This document shows positions 34,438 to 42,840 of a stretch of 48,789 bases of DNA, piece after piece (position 1 is the first letter of the stretch; each line of letters starts with the position of its first letter). The translations under genes were made by a program, and so were the position numbers. Under the pieces are notes generated by a model that made no database searches, was not told the DNA's origin, and was given only the letters and a program-made list of their open reading frames with translations. Source of the DNA: Anaerolineae bacterium. Its GTDB lineage: Bacteria; Chloroflexota; Anaerolineae; Aggregatilineales; UBA2796. Where the stretch lies: contig JANWYI010000016.1 of assembly GCA_025055255.1 (NCBI GenBank), forward strand, positions 19,195 to 67,983, given 5' to 3'.

Positions 34438-37400
34438 ATGTTACAAGACTTTCTGTTTCGCGGCGATCTCGCCGATCTCGACCCTGATGTCGCCGATCTG
34501 ATCAACCTTGAGGCAGCGCGGCAACGCCGTCGCTTGATCATGATCCCGTCTGAGTCCACAGTGCCGTACGCTGTGCGCCAAGCGCTGACCTCACACTTCC
34601 ACAACCTGTACGCCGAAGGCTATCCGCCTGAGGAAATGCGGACAATGCCTGAGTCAGCGCTGTTGGACTTTGACTTGCACCTCGCTGATTTTCGTCGCTA
34701 CAGCGATCCGCGCTATTACAAAGGCACAGAGTTCGTTAACTTGATCGAGTCCTTAGCGCAGCGGCGTTGCGCTGAGCTGTTTGCCACAGGTCGCTTGAGC
34801 GCTGACCAGCTGTACGTGAATGTGCAGCCGCTCAGCGGCGCGCCTGCCAATAGCGCGGTCTACACTGCCTTGTTAACGCCCGGCGACACGATTATGGGCA
34901 TGGATTTGCTGCATGGCGGTCATTTGACGCATGGCAGTCCAGCAGCGCGCAGCGGCAAGCAATACAACGCTGTCTTCTACGGCGTGCATCCTGAGACCGA
35001 GCTGATTGACTACGATGCTGCTTACGCTACAGCAATGCAGCATCGTCCTAAGATCATCATCGGCGGCTATTCGTCCTACCCTTGGGCGCCTGACTGGCAC
35101 AAGTTCCGCGAGATCGCCGACGCCTGCGGTGCGCTGCTCATGGCAGATATTGCGCACGTGGCAGGGCTGGTCGCAGCAGGTGTCTATCCGTCGCCTGTCG
35201 GCATTGCCGACATTGTCACTTTTACAACGCACAAGACGCTCGGCGGACCGCGTGGCGCCGTGATCATCACGCATCGCGCTGACCTAGCTAAGAAGCTGGA
35301 CCGCGGCGTTTTTCCGGGCGAACAAGGCGGACCGCACGTCAACAGCATTGCTGCGCTTGCCATTACGCTGAAACTTGCGCGCACAGAGCAATTCAAGGCA
35401 CTGCAGGCGCAAACTGTGAAGAATGCCGCGCGCCTTGCCGAGAAATTGCGCGAGCACGGCTTGCGCATCGTATACGGCGGTACAAACACACATTTGCTGG
35501 TGGTAGATGTCAGCACAATTCGCGGCACAGATGACACGCCGCTCAGCGGCGACATGGCAGCGCGCATTCTAGACCTAGTCGGCATTACCTGCAATCGCAA
35601 CACCATCCCAGGCGACACCTCAGCGGCACGTCCGAGCGGCATACGGCTCGGAACGCCGTGGATCACGCAGCGCGGTTTCCGCGAGCCTGAAATTGACCGC
35701 CTCGCCTCGATCATCGCGCACACGCTCAAGGCGACGCAGCCTTTCAGCTACACGGGCAAAGGCGGCAAGGACGATCCGCGCGCAAAGTTGCCCTTTGAAG
35801 CGTTGATAGACGCCCGTCACGCCGTGGCGACGCTCTGCGATGAAGCAGGCATTGACTACACATTGCCCGTAGTTGGTAAGCGCATGACCGAGAAAGGCGC
35901 GCAGCACATTTCGCTCTGGGTAGATGAGATGGCAGAGCGCGGCGCACTCTCACTCGCCATACGCGGCGCTGCAGCAACCGACTTCCTGCGCGTCGCGCTC
36001 ACAAGCCGAGTTTATGGCTTGCAAATCGGTGACTCTGAGCCGACTAGTCTGTTGGATAAAGACGGTAGCCTGATTGCAAGCGGCATCCTAGAGCGCGTCG
36101 GCGCGGAGACGTACCACTTACATTTGAACGCTGAAGGTGGACGCGCCGCAGCGTGGCTGCAGGCGCTCTCAGACGGCTTCACGGTCTACGATCCGCTCGA
36201 CATTCACGGCAAATTGTCAGGTGCCGTCGTAGTGAACGTTCTTGGCAAGCCGAGCAAGCTGATAGACGTGCCAGTTGGCACATTAGCAGGCTTCTGCGCA
36301 GACAAGGACTACTTCGTCGGCGCGCGCGGCGCATGCCTATCCGCTGAGCGTGGCACGCCGTTACCTGTCTTTACGTGGCAAGAGCCAACTGATCAGCCGC
36401 TCAAGCGCACGCCGATCTATGACGTTCACAAGCGTCTGGGCGCTAAGATGGCGCCGTTTGGTGGCTACGAAATGCCGCTTTGGTACAAGAGCGTGAGCGC
36501 AGAACACGCTGCTGTGCGCACAACCGCTGGAGTCTTCGATGTCTCACACATGGGCGTCTGGGACGTGCGTGGACGCGGCGCGCTGCATTTCTTGGATCGG
36601 CTGACGACGAACGACGTGCGGACGCTGAAAGTTGGTGACGCGCAGTACAGCTACTTGCTGGGCATTGACGGCGTGCCGCTCGACGACATTTACGTCTATC
36701 GGCTGGCAGAGGATCACTTCATGCTAGTGGTGAATGCCAGCAACAACGACAAGGACTGGGCTTGGGTGAATGCTGTGCGGCGCGGCGAGGTTCAGATCGA
36801 TCCGACGCGACCGTCTGCGCGCCTGCTGGACGACCCTGATGACGTGATCCTGCGCGACCTGCGCGACTTGCAACATGGCGACGCTTGCCGCGTGGATATC
36901 GCCCTGCAAGGGCAGGCGAGTCTGGGCATTTTGCAAAGCATGGCGCACAGTGAGGCAGATAAGAAGCGCCTAGCGAACATGGCGTGGTCAACTGTGGCGC
37001 ACTTCAAGCTAGGTGAGTTCGATTTGATCGTGTCACGGACAGGCTACACAGGTGAGCGCGTCGCTTTTGAGCTGTTCGTGCATCCACACCAAGCAGCAGC
37101 GCTCTTCGAGGCGCTGATCGCAGCAGGCGCGCAACCATGTGGGCTTGCAAGTCGAGATAGCACGCGCATCGAGGCAGGTTTGCCGCTCTACGGACACGAG
37201 CTTGGCGGCGCACACGCCTTCACACCAGGCGACGCAGGCTTCGGCAGCTACGTCAAGCTGTGGAAGCCGTTCTTCGTCGGCAAATTGGCTTATTTAGAGC
37301 GCGAGCGCAAGCGTGACGCGACCATTGTGCGTTTCCGCATGTTACACAAAGGCGTGCGTCCGCCACAGGCAGGCGCTGCCGTGCTGGATCGGCGCGGCAA

Positions 37401-37617
37401 TGTGATCGGCATGGTCACGTCGTGCAGCATTGACTCAGAAGGCTATCAGTGCGGTCAGGCGTATGTGAAAGAGGCATTTAGCGCACCTGAGACGCCGCTC
37501 CTGATCTTGAACGTCGGTAAAGAGGCGACTCTGCCTGCCAGTGTTGCACTAGGCGACCGACTGCCTGTGCCTGATGGAGCAGTTGTGCTGCCGCGCTTCC
37601 CTACCAAGAAAAAGTAG
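34438..37617 (+). CDS. Fusion of serine hydroxymethyltransferase, GcvT-like domain and aminomethyltransferase
   Basis: This 1059-residue protein combines two folate one-carbon enzymes. SHMT occupies about 1-440: [28 protein letters not shown], and PLP-binding Lys266 in [12 protein letters not shown]; it interconverts serine and glycine. A middle region (about 485-650) reads [20 protein letters not shown], which parallels [20 protein letters not shown] in the downstream domain, so it looks like a degenerate GcvT/YgfZ-type fold. A complete GcvT follows (about 655-1055) with [23 protein letters not shown] and SRTGYTGE; it transfers the aminomethyl carbon of glycine to THF. Fusion suggests channelling of THF intermediates. 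No gcvH or gcvP is nearby. GGAGAG precedes the ATG. Confidence 0.93.
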
Positions 37618-37620
37618 CGT

Positions 37621-39117
37621 TCAAGTGAGCATGGCTGCTTGCCGCCGATAGCGCTCAGCTAACTGGCAGTAAGCAGCATGCACTGCAACGCTCGGCGTGT
37701 AGGCTTGGCATGGCGATTGCATGGCGCTGAAGGCAGCCGCTAGGTCAGGGAAAATGCCGAGCAACGTTGCAGCGTACATAGCAGCGCCGCGCAAAGCGCC
37801 GCTCAAGCTATCATAGGTAACTACCTCAACGTTGAGAATATCTGCCATCATCTGCGCTAAGAGCGGACTACGCGCTCCGCCACCTGTTAGACGCAATGGC
37901 GGCGTAAAGTCGGGTAAAAAGGCGTAACAGTGTGCTGCTGCTAGTGCTACACCTTCATAGACGGCGCGCAATAGATGCGCGCGTGTATGCAGCAATGAGA
38001 CGCCTGAAAATTGCGCGCGCGCCTCTGGCAACAAATGTGGTGCGCGCTCGCCTGAGGGCGCAAGAAACGGCAAATACAGGATGCCTTCTGCGCCAACAGG
38101 TATCCGTGCCAACTGCGACTCTAGCTCAGCCGTGCCGATCATGCCGTACGGCTGCGTCAAACCAGGATAGAGCAACTGCGCCCAATATTCGATGTTCGGC
38201 GTCGCTAGCATCGTTGGCACAAAGCGAATGTAGCCGTGCTGAGACGGAATGTATGTAGTGCCGCCAATTTGGCTGTCTTGGCTGCTTAGCTCGGCAAGGC
38301 TGACCTGATGGATACCTGCCGTGCCAAAGACGCTGCAGGCTGTGTTCAGCGCGCCGCCGCTCACGCTGATCAGCTCGGCAACCACGTCAAAAGGCGCCAG
38401 AACAACAGGCAAGTCGGCAGGCAGACCGAGCGCCTTAGCCCTATCAGAGCGCAGTGGCGCGATGCACTCGCTTGGCAGGCGTACAGGCGGCAATTTCTCA
38501 GCGAGTTCGCTCAGCCCCAGAATTTCCAAGACGCGCGGCTCAAATTGACGTGACCGCCAATCTAAATAGGTGTGACTAGCATCGCTCTGATCCGTGATTG
38601 CCTCACCTGTCAGCTGAAAGAATAGCCAGTCTTTGGCAAAAAAGACACGCCAAGTTTCATCGAGCGTGCATGGCTCATGTTCTAGCAACCAAGCTAATTG
38701 CGCTGTTTGGTGCGAGGCAGAGAGCGCTGTGCCTGTGTAGTGTGCTACCAGTCTAGCGCGTCCGTCTGCCTGCCAGCGCCGAACCAGTGGCACGGCGCGC
38801 GCATCTTGCCAGATGATTGCAGAGCGCACAGGGCTGCCATCGGCGCGCAGTAGACGCGTACCATCGCCTTGCGCCGTCACAGCTAACGCGCGATAGGCAT
38901 GTTGTGGCAAGTCAGCTGTGCGGACACATTCAGCAAGGCAATCAAAGGCAGTCTCTTGAAGAGCAACTAGGTCTTGTTCACACCAAGTAGGCTGTAAACG
39001 CTGTAACAGACACGACCGCGCAGCGCGCGCCAAGCGCTTGCCGTGCAAGTCAAAAACAGCTGCCTTGACGTGAGTAGTGCCTAAATCTATTGCGATAAGG
39101 GCATCGAGTGCGTTCAA
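37621..39117 (-). CDS. FGGY-family carbohydrate kinase
   Basis: This 498-residue sugar kinase has an N-terminal phosphate loop IAIDLGTTHVKAAVFD, IIWQDARAV in the substrate region, and the C-terminal FGGY signature region LRLTGGGARSPLLAQMMADI. Domain order and length match xylulokinase, L-xylulokinase and gluconokinase relatives; the sugar cannot be assigned. The start must lie before IAIDLGTT. TTG at 39117 is the only usual start codon in the open frame there, and no strong ribosome site precedes it, so expression may be low. It is convergent with the SHMT/GcvT gene, with 3 bases between stops. Confidence 0.88.
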   Translation of the reverse strand: MNALDALIAIDLGTTHVKAAVFDLHGKRLARAARSCLLQRLQPTWCEQDLVALQETAFDCLAECVRTADLPQHAYRALAVTAQGDGTRLLRADGSPVRSAIIWQDARAVPLVRRWQADGRARLVAHYTGTALSASHQTAQLAWLLEHEPCTLDETWRVFFAKDWLFFQLTGEAITDQSDASHTYLDWRSRQFEPRVLEILGLSELAEKLPPVRLPSECIAPLRSDRAKALGLPADLPVVLAPFDVVAELISVSGGALNTACSVFGTAGIHQVSLAELSSQDSQIGGTTYIPSQHGYIRFVPTMLATPNIEYWAQLLYPGLTQPYGMIGTAELESQLARIPVGAEGILYLPFLAPSGERAPHLLPEARAQFSGVSLLHTRAHLLRAVYEGVALAAAHCYAFLPDFTPPLRLTGGGARSPLLAQMMADILNVEVVTYDSLSGALRGAAMYAATLLGIFPDLAAAFSAMQSPCQAYTPSVAVHAAYCQLAERYRRQAAMLT

Positions 39118-39469
39118 AATAACTATCAGTGGTCAGCTAGGGTTTGCACAATTTCTCCGATCTTACCTCTAGAGCAGGCTACAGGCAATAATTCAGCAAG
39201 CCTGTGCTACCTGAGGCTGTGAGCTCGCAGAGCAAAGTTCAAACCTTAGACAATCGTGCTAAGTTAGCTAATCTTTTCAAAGACTTGTCAACGAGCTGCT
39301 GACTTCGAGTTGGCTACCAAATAATTTGTGTCTTGCAGAACAAATGCAGCTTTCTGCCGATCCCACCTAGATTAAAAGCGCTTGAGCAGGTTTTGCTATG
39401 CAGTTGCGCGATTGCTAAATTTGGATAAACTGCAGATCAACGTCCATTAGACAAGTGCGAGAGAGTCCT
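39118..39469. other. Divergent intergenic region
   Basis: This 352-base gap between the FGGY kinase and the DICT gene is AT-richer than its surroundings. A plus-strand promoter candidate lies at 39404-39431. I see no other gene, repeat or RNA element. Confidence 0.5.
39404..39431 (+). promoter_or_regulatory. Candidate promoter of the DICT gene
   Basis: TTGCGC (39404-39409), 16 bases and TAAACT (39426-39431), about 40 bases before the ATG at 39470. Moderate match only. Confidence 0.35.
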
Positions 39470-40120
39470 ATGCCGATTGCCATTGATCCAACGCTGTCTG
39501 TCTATGCGCTTGCCGCTCGCGTTGCAGATAGCGCTGCAATGATCAATCATCGCCGCACAATGACGCTCATCAGCTACGAAATCGAGAATGCAGTGCTGCA
39601 CGACGGCGCTAGAGCGCGTATTTTCGCGGGCTTCCAGAAAATGAGCTTCTTCTTGCCGCAAGTCAAGCGCTATCAGCGCCTTGCGCAGCGCGCCGAGTCA
39701 GTTTACGTCTTCGGCGTGCCAGATGTGCCAGTGCCGAACATCCCTAACGTCACTTACGTCACGATCAGTCCACGCGATCAACTTGCCAAAGAGTGGTTTT
39801 TGTTGGCAGATGCACCTGACTATGCCAGCATCCTCGCTACGGAGGAGCTGACCACGTGGGACGATCCTGATCATGAGCGCGTTTTCAAAGGCGTGTGGTC
39901 GTTTGATGAGAACATTGTGACCATTGTGCAGGAGTGGCTGACTAGTCTTGTGGATGCACGTCCGCTTGGTGAGCGCAAACGCGATCCAAAGGCGCAGCTT
40001 GTCTACATGCAACGCACAACTATGCGTATTGCCAGCCGCTTGGTCAAGCTCTCGGAGCAGCGCACGCCACAAGCCGTTGAAACAGCCAAAGAGCTTGAGT
40101 TCGCTATGCCGCGCTTCTGA
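39470..40120 (+). CDS. DICT sensory-domain protein
   Basis: This 216-residue protein has a DICT domain over most of its length (about 5-150). The domain is known from diguanylate cyclases and two-component proteins. The matching segments are RRTMTLISYEIENAVL, YQRLAQRAESVYVFGVPDV and PRDQLAKEWFLLADAPDY. No catalytic output domain is attached, so it probably senses a small molecule and acts on a partner. ATG 39470 is favoured over a GTG five codons upstream because GAGAG sits at correct spacing. It is followed after 117 bases by a baeRF-like gene. Confidence 0.85.
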   Translation: MPIAIDPTLSVYALAARVADSAAMINHRRTMTLISYEIENAVLHDGARARIFAGFQKMSFFLPQVKRYQRLAQRAESVYVFGVPDVPVPNIPNVTYVTISPRDQLAKEWFLLADAPDYASILATEELTTWDDPDHERVFKGVWSFDENIVTIVQEWLTSLVDARPLGERKRDPKAQLVYMQRTTMRIASRLVKLSEQRTPQAVETAKELEFAMPRF

Positions 40121-40237
40121 GCAATGTGTGAAGTGGCACGCCAAGCCTTGACTCGACTGCATTTTATGCTGAAATAGGCGCTGTCAAATCTATGCAGCGC
40201 TGAGTCTGCTGCGCTGTGCCACTCTGAAGGAGACCTT

Positions 40238-41347
40238 ATGCTACGTGAGGCAGAACATCTGCTCAAAGAGTTTGTCGCATACGTGGAGAACGCCGAAGAG
40301 CGTCCAAGCATTCTATCGCTCTACCTCGTAGTAGACCCAGCTGATCCTGCTAACCAAGCTGACACACCTGCATGGCAAATCTATCTGCGCAACGCTCTGA
40401 CCGAGATCGAAAACCAGCTTGATCCTGAGCAGGTCAAGCACTGGAAAACTGTCCGCCTATCGGATACCTCTGAGAAGACCGAGTGGGCGCGCACAAGGTT
40501 GCGTCTTGAGAATTACCTCGATAGCTATCGTCCGCAGGGTAAAACGCTAGTATTATTTGTCAGCGCTGATGAGTTGCTTGCTTACGAACTGCCTGTACGC
40601 CTGCGGAACCATGCACACTACGGCTGGATGCAGATCAAAGACTTCCTCTACGCGCTGGACGAATATGAGCAGCATCTGGTCGTGCTTTTCGCTCAAGACA
40701 AGGCGCGCGCGGTCAGTCTGTTTCTCGGCACCTCAGCCAGCGATGTAACTGTCAACCTAGACCAGACGTGGCAACGCAAAGACAGCCGTAAGACGGCACA
40801 CGCTGCACAGATCGCGCGCCGTCAGGATGAGCTGGATCGGCGCTTCGTGCGCTACATCGCCGATGAGATCAACCAGGTCTTTGTGAAAGACCAAGACGTG
40901 GATCGCGTCGTGCTAGGCGGCAACGTGCAGTTGGCACACGCTGTGCGCGCTTTCTTGCATCCATCTGTAGCGCGCAAAGTCATTAGCATTGCTAAAATTC
41001 CGTTCGACGCGCCACCACATGAAATTGCTGATCAAATTCGCTCAATCGCATATGCTGCCGAGCGCGACCATGAGCTAATTCTAGTACAAGACACGATCAA
41101 CATGGCGAAAGCAGGCAAGCGTGCTGCGCTTGGCTTGAGCGACGTCAATCAAGCGCTGGACGTATACGCTGTCAGCGTGCTGATCTTGCCGTATCCGATT
41201 GAGACGCCAATTTTGACGGGCATTGTGGACGAATTGCTGGTCAAGGCGCTGCACAGCGGCAGCCAAGTGGAATTTGTGCGTGGCGAGGCGGCGAATTTGC
41301 TGCTCACAGAAGGCGGCGTGGCAGCGCAGCTTTATTATACGCTCTGA
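40238..41347 (+). CDS. Bacterial eRF1-like (baeRF family) protein
   Basis: This 369-residue protein resembles the bacterial archaeo-eukaryotic release factor families, which share eRF1/Pelota domains. The central part has HLVVLFAQDKARAVSLFLGT and RYIADEINQVFV; the C-terminal part has DVDRVVLGGNVQLAHAVRAF and GLSDVNQALDVYAVSVLIL, typical of eRF1 domain 3-like folds. These proteins are proposed to act at ribosomes or on hibernating or stalled complexes; the activity is not known. AAGGAG precedes the ATG at ideal spacing. The stop is 1 base from the stop of the convergent hydrolase. Confidence 0.8.
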   Translation: MLREAEHLLKEFVAYVENAEERPSILSLYLVVDPADPANQADTPAWQIYLRNALTEIENQLDPEQVKHWKTVRLSDTSEKTEWARTRLRLENYLDSYRPQGKTLVLFVSADELLAYELPVRLRNHAHYGWMQIKDFLYALDEYEQHLVVLFAQDKARAVSLFLGTSASDVTVNLDQTWQRKDSRKTAHAAQIARRQDELDRRFVRYIADEINQVFVKDQDVDRVVLGGNVQLAHAVRAFLHPSVARKVISIAKIPFDAPPHEIADQIRSIAYAAERDHELILVQDTINMAKAGKRAALGLSDVNQALDVYAVSVLILPYPIETPILTGIVDELLVKALHSGSQVEFVRGEAANLLLTEGGVAAQLYYTL

Positions 41348-41348
41348 G

Positions 41349-41990
41349 CTAGAGTCGGTGCGCCAGTAGCCATTCGTACAGTCCAAAACTAGGCGCAAAG
41401 GCTTTGATCGCTGTCTGAATGTGATCAGCACCTTCCAGCAGGCTCACCTTGACCTTGCCGCCGCATGTTTCAAGCGCAGTGGCAAGGTTGCGCGTGTTCT
41501 CACATGGCACAACTTCGTCGGCATTGCCGTGAATTGCCCAGACTGGCACGTCTTTCAGGTCGCACAGGTGTGCTAGAAAGTGCGGGTCAGGTGGAATGCG
41601 CGCTGCTACAGGCGCAATAGCTGCAAACAGGCGCGGCGCGCGCGCTGCGATGTACCATGTGCCTTGTCCGCCCATGCTGAAGCCTGTCAGGTACAGCCGC
41701 GTCGAGTCAAAGCTGTGCATTTGGCGTACGACATCAATCAAGGCGAGAACAGCCGCAGCGTGATCAGTCCAACGTGTTTCCAGTGGACACTGCGGCGAGA
41801 GCACAGCAGCAGGGAAATCTGAGCGTGTCTCTAGGAGTGCAGGCAAGGCGTAACGCCTGACCATGTTCAGATCAGTGCCGCGCTCACCGCTGCCGTGCAA
41901 AAAGACGATCAGCGGCAAGTCCTCAGCTGGCTGATCGTCAGGCAAGTAGAGTAGATAGTTCAGAAAGCGTGAGGTATAGCCCTGCTGCAT
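41349..41990 (-). CDS. Predicted esterase/phospholipase-like alpha/beta hydrolase
   Basis: This hydrolase has 213 residues. Oxyanion loop FLHGSGERGTD, nucleophile Ser105 in LTGFSMGGQGTW, acid Asp in IHGNADEVVP, and His in EGADH match the poly(3-hydroxybutyrate) depolymerase/esterase (prolyl oligopeptidase-like) group. The E-R-G-x-D after HG is typical of that subgroup. No signal peptide is seen. The reading frame extends far upstream, across the tlyA start, but ATG 41990 with AAGGAT nine bases before it begins just before the first strand. The substrate is unknown. Confidence 0.86.
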   Translation of the reverse strand: MQQGYTSRFLNYLLYLPDDQPAEDLPLIVFLHGSGERGTDLNMVRRYALPALLETRSDFPAAVLSPQCPLETRWTDHAAAVLALIDVVRQMHSFDSTRLYLTGFSMGGQGTWYIAARAPRLFAAIAPVAARIPPDPHFLAHLCDLKDVPVWAIHGNADEVVPCENTRNLATALETCGGKVKVSLLEGADHIQTAIKAFAPSFGLYEWLLAHRL

Positions 41991-42010
41991 CGGCGCGATC
42001 CTTTTTGCGC

Positions 42011-42016
42011 TATAAT
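42011..42016 (+). promoter_or_regulatory. -10 element directly before tlyA
   Basis: A perfect TATAAT lies only 8 bases before the ATG at 42025, with no clear -35. If used, the transcript would begin at or next to this ATG (leaderless) or leave TTG 42043 as the start, with AAGGA at 42034-42038 as its ribosome site. Confidence 0.45.
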
Positions 42017-42024
42017 TCCTAGCC

Positions 42025-42840
42025 ATGTATTCGAAGGAACGTTTGGATATTTTACTTGTTGCGCGCGGAAAAGTGGAGTCGCGTGAGCTGGCGCGGCGCT
42101 TAATCATGGCAGGTGAGGTGCGCGTCAACGGACAGGTCGTGGACAAGCCCGGTCAGCGCGTGCCGACTGATGCTGACCTGTCCGTTGAGACGGCGCCGCG
42201 CTACGTTAGTCGTGGCGGCGACAAGCTAGCCGCAGCGCTGCGTGCGTTCGCTGTGCCAGTAGATGGACAGGTTTGCGCCGATGTCGGCGCCAGTCATGGC
42301 GGCTTCACAGACTGCTTGCTTCAGCACGGCGCAGCGAGAGTGTACGCCATAGACGTAGGTTACGGACAGCTGGACTATCGTTTGCGCGTTGATCAGCGTG
42401 TTGTCGTCATGGAGCGCACCAATGTACGCTACCTTTCGGCATTGCCAGAGCCTGTGCGTCTTGCTGTGATTGATGTCTCATTCATCTCGCTGCGGCTGGT
42501 GTTGCCTGTGGTGCGCGCCTGGCTGACTGAGGATGCGCATGTCGTGCCGCTGATCAAGCCGCAGTTTGAGGCAGGCAGGCGTGATGTCGGCAAAGGCGGC
42601 GTGGTGAAGTCAGCGGATGTCCATCGGCGCGTGCTGTCCGATGTACTGGATACGGCGCGCACTGAAGGTCTCGTGCCATTCGGCTTAATCCGTAGTCCAC
42701 TGCGCGGCGCCTCAGGCAATGTAGAGTTTTTAGCGTGGTTGCGCTACAAAGCGCCTGAAGAGACGTCTTTTGATCAAAGTGCCGCTATTGACGCGGCGCT
42801 GCGCGATGCAGATGCAGCAGATGGAGCTAACTCAACATGA
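42025..42840 (+). CDS. tlyA: TlyA family rRNA methyltransferase (S4 domain)
   Basis: This 271-residue protein has an N-terminal S4 RNA-binding domain (about 5-65; [20 protein letters not shown]) and a FtsJ-like Rossmann methyltransferase (about 70-255; [37 protein letters not shown] with the catalytic Lys). TlyA 2'-O-methylates rRNA cytidines (16S C1409 and/or 23S C1920). The start is ATG 42025, whose CATG overlaps other-strand coding, or TTG 42043, which has the better ribosome site. Its stop overlaps the rpe start (ATGA), so the two are coupled. Confidence 0.92.

Follow-up and report, generated by a model that had tools for sequence, protein, structure and literature searches.

Balon proteins, exemplified by MSMEG_1130/Balon (PDB code 8v9j), are described in the accessible part of PMC10901736 as proteins without a GGQ motif that bind to the ribosomal A site, and their genes are reported there in a stress-operon setting. 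Among the baeRF proteins, family 10 (PF18854) has been proposed as possibly catalytic owing to a conserved glutamine residue, according to the accessible portion of PMC6514570. Sensor-fused hibernation factors exist in archaea, where HibA is an HPF-CBS protein (PMC13324472, accessible in part). With respect to the DICT domain (PF10069), which is the sensory domain common to DICT histidine kinases and cyclases, a 2022 review, in its accessible sections, names it among the sensory domains without discernible physiological purpose (PMC8846402). No link to ribosomes appeared in the accessible parts of the literature retrieved for "DICT domain", and searches for "DICT" together with "TrmB", for "PF10069", and for "ribosome hibernation" together with "Chloroflexota" returned no publications.

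In the window, i.e., the whole stretch of 48,789 nucleotides analysed here, a DICT gene and a baeRF gene occur side by side on the same strand, separated by an intergenic gap of 117 bp:

37621-39117, minus strand: FGGY carbohydrate kinase, upstream flank, not the neighbour of DICT in the related genomes G001 or G003
39470-40120, plus strand: stand-alone DICT protein of 216 aa (PF10069, E 3.3e-21; AlphaFold2 model)
40238-41347, plus strand: baeRF family 10 protein of 369 aa, Balon/MSMEG_1130-like (PF18854, E 9e-20)
41349-42146, minus strand: alpha/beta hydrolase, downstream convergent flank

The initial annotation had named both domains and described an island of two plus-strand genes with minus-strand genes on either side; the island is real, both open reading frames are found where it placed them, and the names are right, the Pfam scores of 76 bits for DICT and 71.8 bits for baeRF_family10 lying above the gathering cut-offs of 23.8 and 27.1, respectively. 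The DICT start was set at the ATG codon at 39470, an alternative GTG start at 39455 being possible. Homologues of both proteins in the genus share 82-88% amino-acid identity, and the dN/dS ratio amounts to about 0.03-0.13 for the two genes in the pairs with estimable dS (dS is saturated for the baeRF pair G000-G004), so that DICT and baeRF are real genes under purifying selection. The named relatives of DICT include those of Chloroflexi bacterium CFX4 (a MAG), isolate J076 and isolate 629H.12; the further relatives belong to Aggregatilineales or Anaerolineae MAGs. Elsewhere in the window, a 1059-aa fusion of serine hydroxymethyltransferase with a GcvT-like aminomethyltransferase extends over 34438-37617, and a DNA match spans the fusion in all four genus relatives.

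The AlphaFold2 model of DICT, obtained with 44 sequences, displays a pLDDT of 88.7 and a pTM of 0.88. Two regions can be distinguished along the polypeptide chain:

39527-39961, plus strand: DICT residues 20-164, predicted phospholipase-D-like fold, TrmB-like (Foldseek; VIA-align)
39986-40105, plus strand: C-terminal helices of DICT, residues 173-212, no output domain (DSSP; alignment with L038)

Foldseek returned TrmB as the sole match of this model below E 0.001, and the structure comparison performed with VIA-align gave 24 chains at Z of at least 8, the best solved match being the sugar-binding domain of TrmB (2f5t_X; Z 10.3, rmsd 3.0, 125 aligned residues). Most of the remaining chains listed correspond to TrmBL2, phospholipase D, PPK1, Zucchini or FAM83-type proteins, which have phospholipase-D folds. 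In the predicted model the match covers most of the DICT domain, and the matched region extends beyond the Pfam DICT match (residues 9-126). The likeness to TrmB concerns the predicted fold; the identity is 7%, and the window DICT is devoid of any DNA-binding domain. Inspected by eye, the invariant columns of the DICT alignments A4 and A6 contain no conserved H-K-D set, the HKD motif being the mark of a catalytic phospholipase D, so that a non-catalytic, TrmB-like ligand-binding role becomes the natural reading. On the basis of this model, DICT is probably a sensor with a phospholipase-D fold. A TrmB-like fold, if the prediction holds, would describe DICT more specifically than any publication that was found, and the hypothesis of a non-catalytic phospholipase-D fold binding a small ligand is directly testable.

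The C-terminal helices of DICT align with the linker preceding the HisKA domain of the order-level DICT kinases, e.g., the DICT-HisKA-HATPase protein of locus L158, which shares 43% identity with the window DICT over residues 27-207. DICT therefore looks like a kinase sensor minus the kinase, and it differs from the DICT histidine kinases and cyclases by its stand-alone organization without output domain. Since the protein ends where the HisKA linker begins in the kinases of the order, it might be read as what is left of a DICT histidine kinase in decay, devoid of any current function. Such a remnant is highly improbable, however, because the DICT dN/dS of 0.06-0.13 across the five genus genomes indicates purifying selection and because DICTs of this stand-alone kind, about 170-250 aa long, are found repeatedly in the order. 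A kinase-derived sensory domain still under selection is preferred. Other DICTs are fused to kinases or cyclases; in L110 and L152, the fusion partner of DICT is an adenylate/guanylate cyclase domain, an architecture leading straight from sensor to second messenger.

Taken alone, the window baeRF gives only weak matches to PDB entries. A profile built from 26 order-level homologues (A5) matches MSMEG_1130/Balon (8v9j) over its full length, positions 2-353 of the profile being aligned with residues 7-374 at E 1.3e-29, followed among the PDB matches by Pelota, the Balon protein Rv2629 and eRF1. At the level of this profile, baeRF thus exhibits the three-domain homology to the solved Balon proteins. 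With 53.7 bits against a cut-off of 480 for the NCBIfam MSMEG_1130 equivalog (NF052288), baeRF is a Balon-like relative located outside the equivalog. The structure model of baeRF, built from three near-identical sequences, reaches a pLDDT of 39.7 and its fold was left unused. No relatives of baeRF were found among viral contigs.

Like MSMEG_1130/Balon (8v9j; PMC10901736, accessible in part), the window baeRF contains neither a GGQ nor a NIKS string. It differs from it in the middle domain, where the loop is shortened, in its score far under the equivalog cut-off, and in its neighbourhood, since it adjoins DICT instead of RaiA/HPF; the HPF gene of the same genome lies on another contig and not beside baeRF. 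The shortened loop corresponds to the following region:

40730-40843, plus strand: baeRF residues 165-202, catalytic-loop region in shortened form, GGQ absent

Between two conserved columns, this region comprises 38 residues in all four genus baeRFs and 41-56 residues in the other 22 proteins. At the examined loop position, which was placed by hand against eRF1 and is therefore approximate, a Lys residue occurs in the four genus proteins and a Gln residue in eight of the 22 order members outside the genus. The window baeRF scores above the Pfam cut-off of family 10, and it might be an active peptidyl-tRNA hydrolase rescuing stalled ribosomes, as the conserved glutamine has suggested for this family (PMC6514570, accessible in part). 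Apart from family membership, the Gln residues of the eight order members speak for such an enzyme; it is nevertheless improbable here, given that the genus proteins differ from family 10 by the Lys residue at the examined position and by the shorter loop, that GGQ is lacking, and that the closest solved relative of baeRF is a hibernation factor. The lack of GGQ together with the shortened loop renders an A-site plug, i.e., hibernation, likelier than peptide release, i.e., rescue. As judged from sequence, baeRF is probably a Balon-like hibernation factor, a distant full-length homologue of MSMEG_1130/Balon which, by homology, would insert into the A site of the ribosome during stress and leave the peptide unreleased. 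The initial annotation had offered "rescue or hibernation": the second term is a fair description in view of the full-length match, and the first has become the less likely of the two in view of the missing GGQ and the short loop. A Balon-like factor with an altered loop in Chloroflexota, together with the fold hypothesis for DICT, is useful as it stands.

The same annotation had also suggested that the two genes form a signal-controlled module, to be checked by the neighbourhood of both genes in related genomes. DICT and baeRF are adjacent in four of the five genus genomes, namely G000, G002, G003 and G001; in G001, baeRF immediately follows DICT but is cut off by the contig end after some 20 codons, and the pair was counted as adjacent. 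The adjacency is broken in G004, where DICT and baeRF are located on different contigs among unrelated neighbours. Among the 154 genomes of the order, DICT occurs in 42 and baeRF10 in 33; outside the genus, 11 genomes carry both families and, by visual inspection, the genes are adjacent in none of them, being located on different contigs except in G490, where they lie at least 375 kb apart. In the phylum sample (400 genomes, DICT in 40 and baeRF10 in 123), 18 genomes besides G000 carry both and adjacency was again seen by eye in none, the closest pair on the same contig being about 169 kb apart. Only two of the 80 DICT loci of named genomes contain baeRF, both from the genus (L138 and L140), although some DICT loci are short and a neighbour past the contig end would be missed. 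No DICT gene was found within the stretches of the 24 order-level baeRF10 loci, which include that of G004. The neighbourhood comparison thus went against the module, the pair not being adjacent outside the genus in either sample (0/11 and 0/18).

Inside the genus, the retention of the pair was compared with that of gene order in general over 40 kb of the window against the four genus relatives. Thirty neighbouring pairs in four genomes gave 87 scorable comparisons (33 were not scorable), 67 of which are kept, i.e., a background of 77%, some of the breaks being possibly contig ends; DICT-baeRF is kept in three of four genomes, a count that includes G001 through a lowered presence threshold for baeRF and is thereby biased towards the pairing. 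Retention of the pair thus equals the background. In favour of the pairing, the junction between FGGY and DICT is lost in the two genomes that can be scored (G001 and G003), where the pair stays intact while the upstream neighbour differs. Concerning the ancestral order of the split and the pair, the gene trees do not resolve the genus; in a larger DICT tree, G004 falls within the genus at modest support (92/75), in which case the separation of its DICT and baeRF would be secondary.

A conserved element occurs in the gap between the two genes:

40146-40176, plus strand: conserved block between DICT and baeRF resembling a promoter, with TTGACT-N16-TGAAAT at 40148-40175, in five genus sequences

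Twenty of the 28 aligned columns of this block are identical in the five genus sequences, compared to 6/26 and 9/63 in the remaining parts of the gap. The aligned sequences include that of G004, where the block precedes the lone baeRF, and the DNA that follows the lone DICT of G004 does not contain it. The block does not correspond to a full sigma-70 consensus, and a consensus scan of the gap reported neither promoter nor terminator. As a regulon signature the block was rejected, since no second copy was found in the genome within 3 mismatches. Its conservation in the gap and its persistence with the lone baeRF of G004 lead us to infer, from sequence comparison, that baeRF may possess its own promoter or operator. 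The idea of a co-transcribed DICT-baeRF operon is weakened by the same block.

In this respect, DICT and baeRF are quite likely two separately controlled genes that are neighbours in one genus by lineage history. According to this scheme, baeRF would be transcribed from a putative promoter located in the gap, DICT would act as a sensory domain of kinase origin with a predicted ligand-binding fold, and their adjacency would reflect the history of the lineage rather than a functional unit. Several features run against separate control: the co-orientation and the short gap make a read-through from DICT possible, the pair is intact in G001 and G003 despite another upstream neighbour, and the block departs from a consensus promoter. 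The first two of these features, together with the presence of the pair in four of the five genus genomes (with only the first baeRF codons before the contig end in G001), also speak for a two-gene signal-controlled hibernation module, in which DICT would bind a ligand and set the expression of baeRF or its entry into the ribosome in trans. The archaeal HibA (PMC13324472, accessible in part) shares with such a module the principle that a sensor is combined with a hibernation factor; the proteins are nevertheless unrelated, and HibA is a fusion whereas DICT and baeRF are neighbouring genes. If functional, the pairing would mean that ribosome hibernation is switched by a dedicated ligand sensor. 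The module is unlikely, however, owing to the split in G004, the absence of the pair outside the genus in both the order and the phylum sample, the retention equal to background (3/4 vs 67/87) and the separate block before baeRF; the signal-controlled module proposed at the outset thus finds no support in the distribution, the retention or the gap.

Another argument in favour of the module comes from the neighbours of DICT in the sister family. RsgA, another ribosome factor and a GTPase of ribosome assembly, is encoded one or two genes downstream of a stand-alone DICT on the same strand in three of the 25 DICT loci examined for neighbours, five of which come from the genus. These three loci (L100, L101 and L106) represent three genera of the sister family, and in the DICT tree their DICTs belong to a clade of 14 rows that is unresolved. 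G493, the closest relative of one of the RsgA-linked DICTs, has no RsgA in its stretch, and each of the 154 genomes of the order contains RsgA-family matches. The DICT-RsgA adjacency is a weak lead for a link between stand-alone DICT and translation. A more general scheme, in which a DICT freed from its kinase and endowed with the predicted phospholipase-D fold would act in trans on stress factors of the ribosome, the Balon-like baeRF10 in the genus and RsgA in the sister genera, gating hibernation by a small ligand, appears improbable. Two separately controlled genes remain the preferred reading.

Depending on the genome, baeRF10 occurs in other surroundings. A co-oriented gene for a YitT-family membrane protein lies upstream in seven of the 24 order-level loci (L118, L123, L131, L134, L135, L136 and L036), and in three others (L122, L128 and L137) baeRF10 directly follows a co-oriented gene for an HtrA-type protease, itself preceded by DnaJ. 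Both arrangements fit the stress-operon setting of Balon genes, as reported in the accessible part of PMC10901736. Upstream of DICT, a small FHA-domain protein is found beside a JAB-family (MPN) protease in two loci, at 8123-9192 of L031 and at 1173-2245 of L029.
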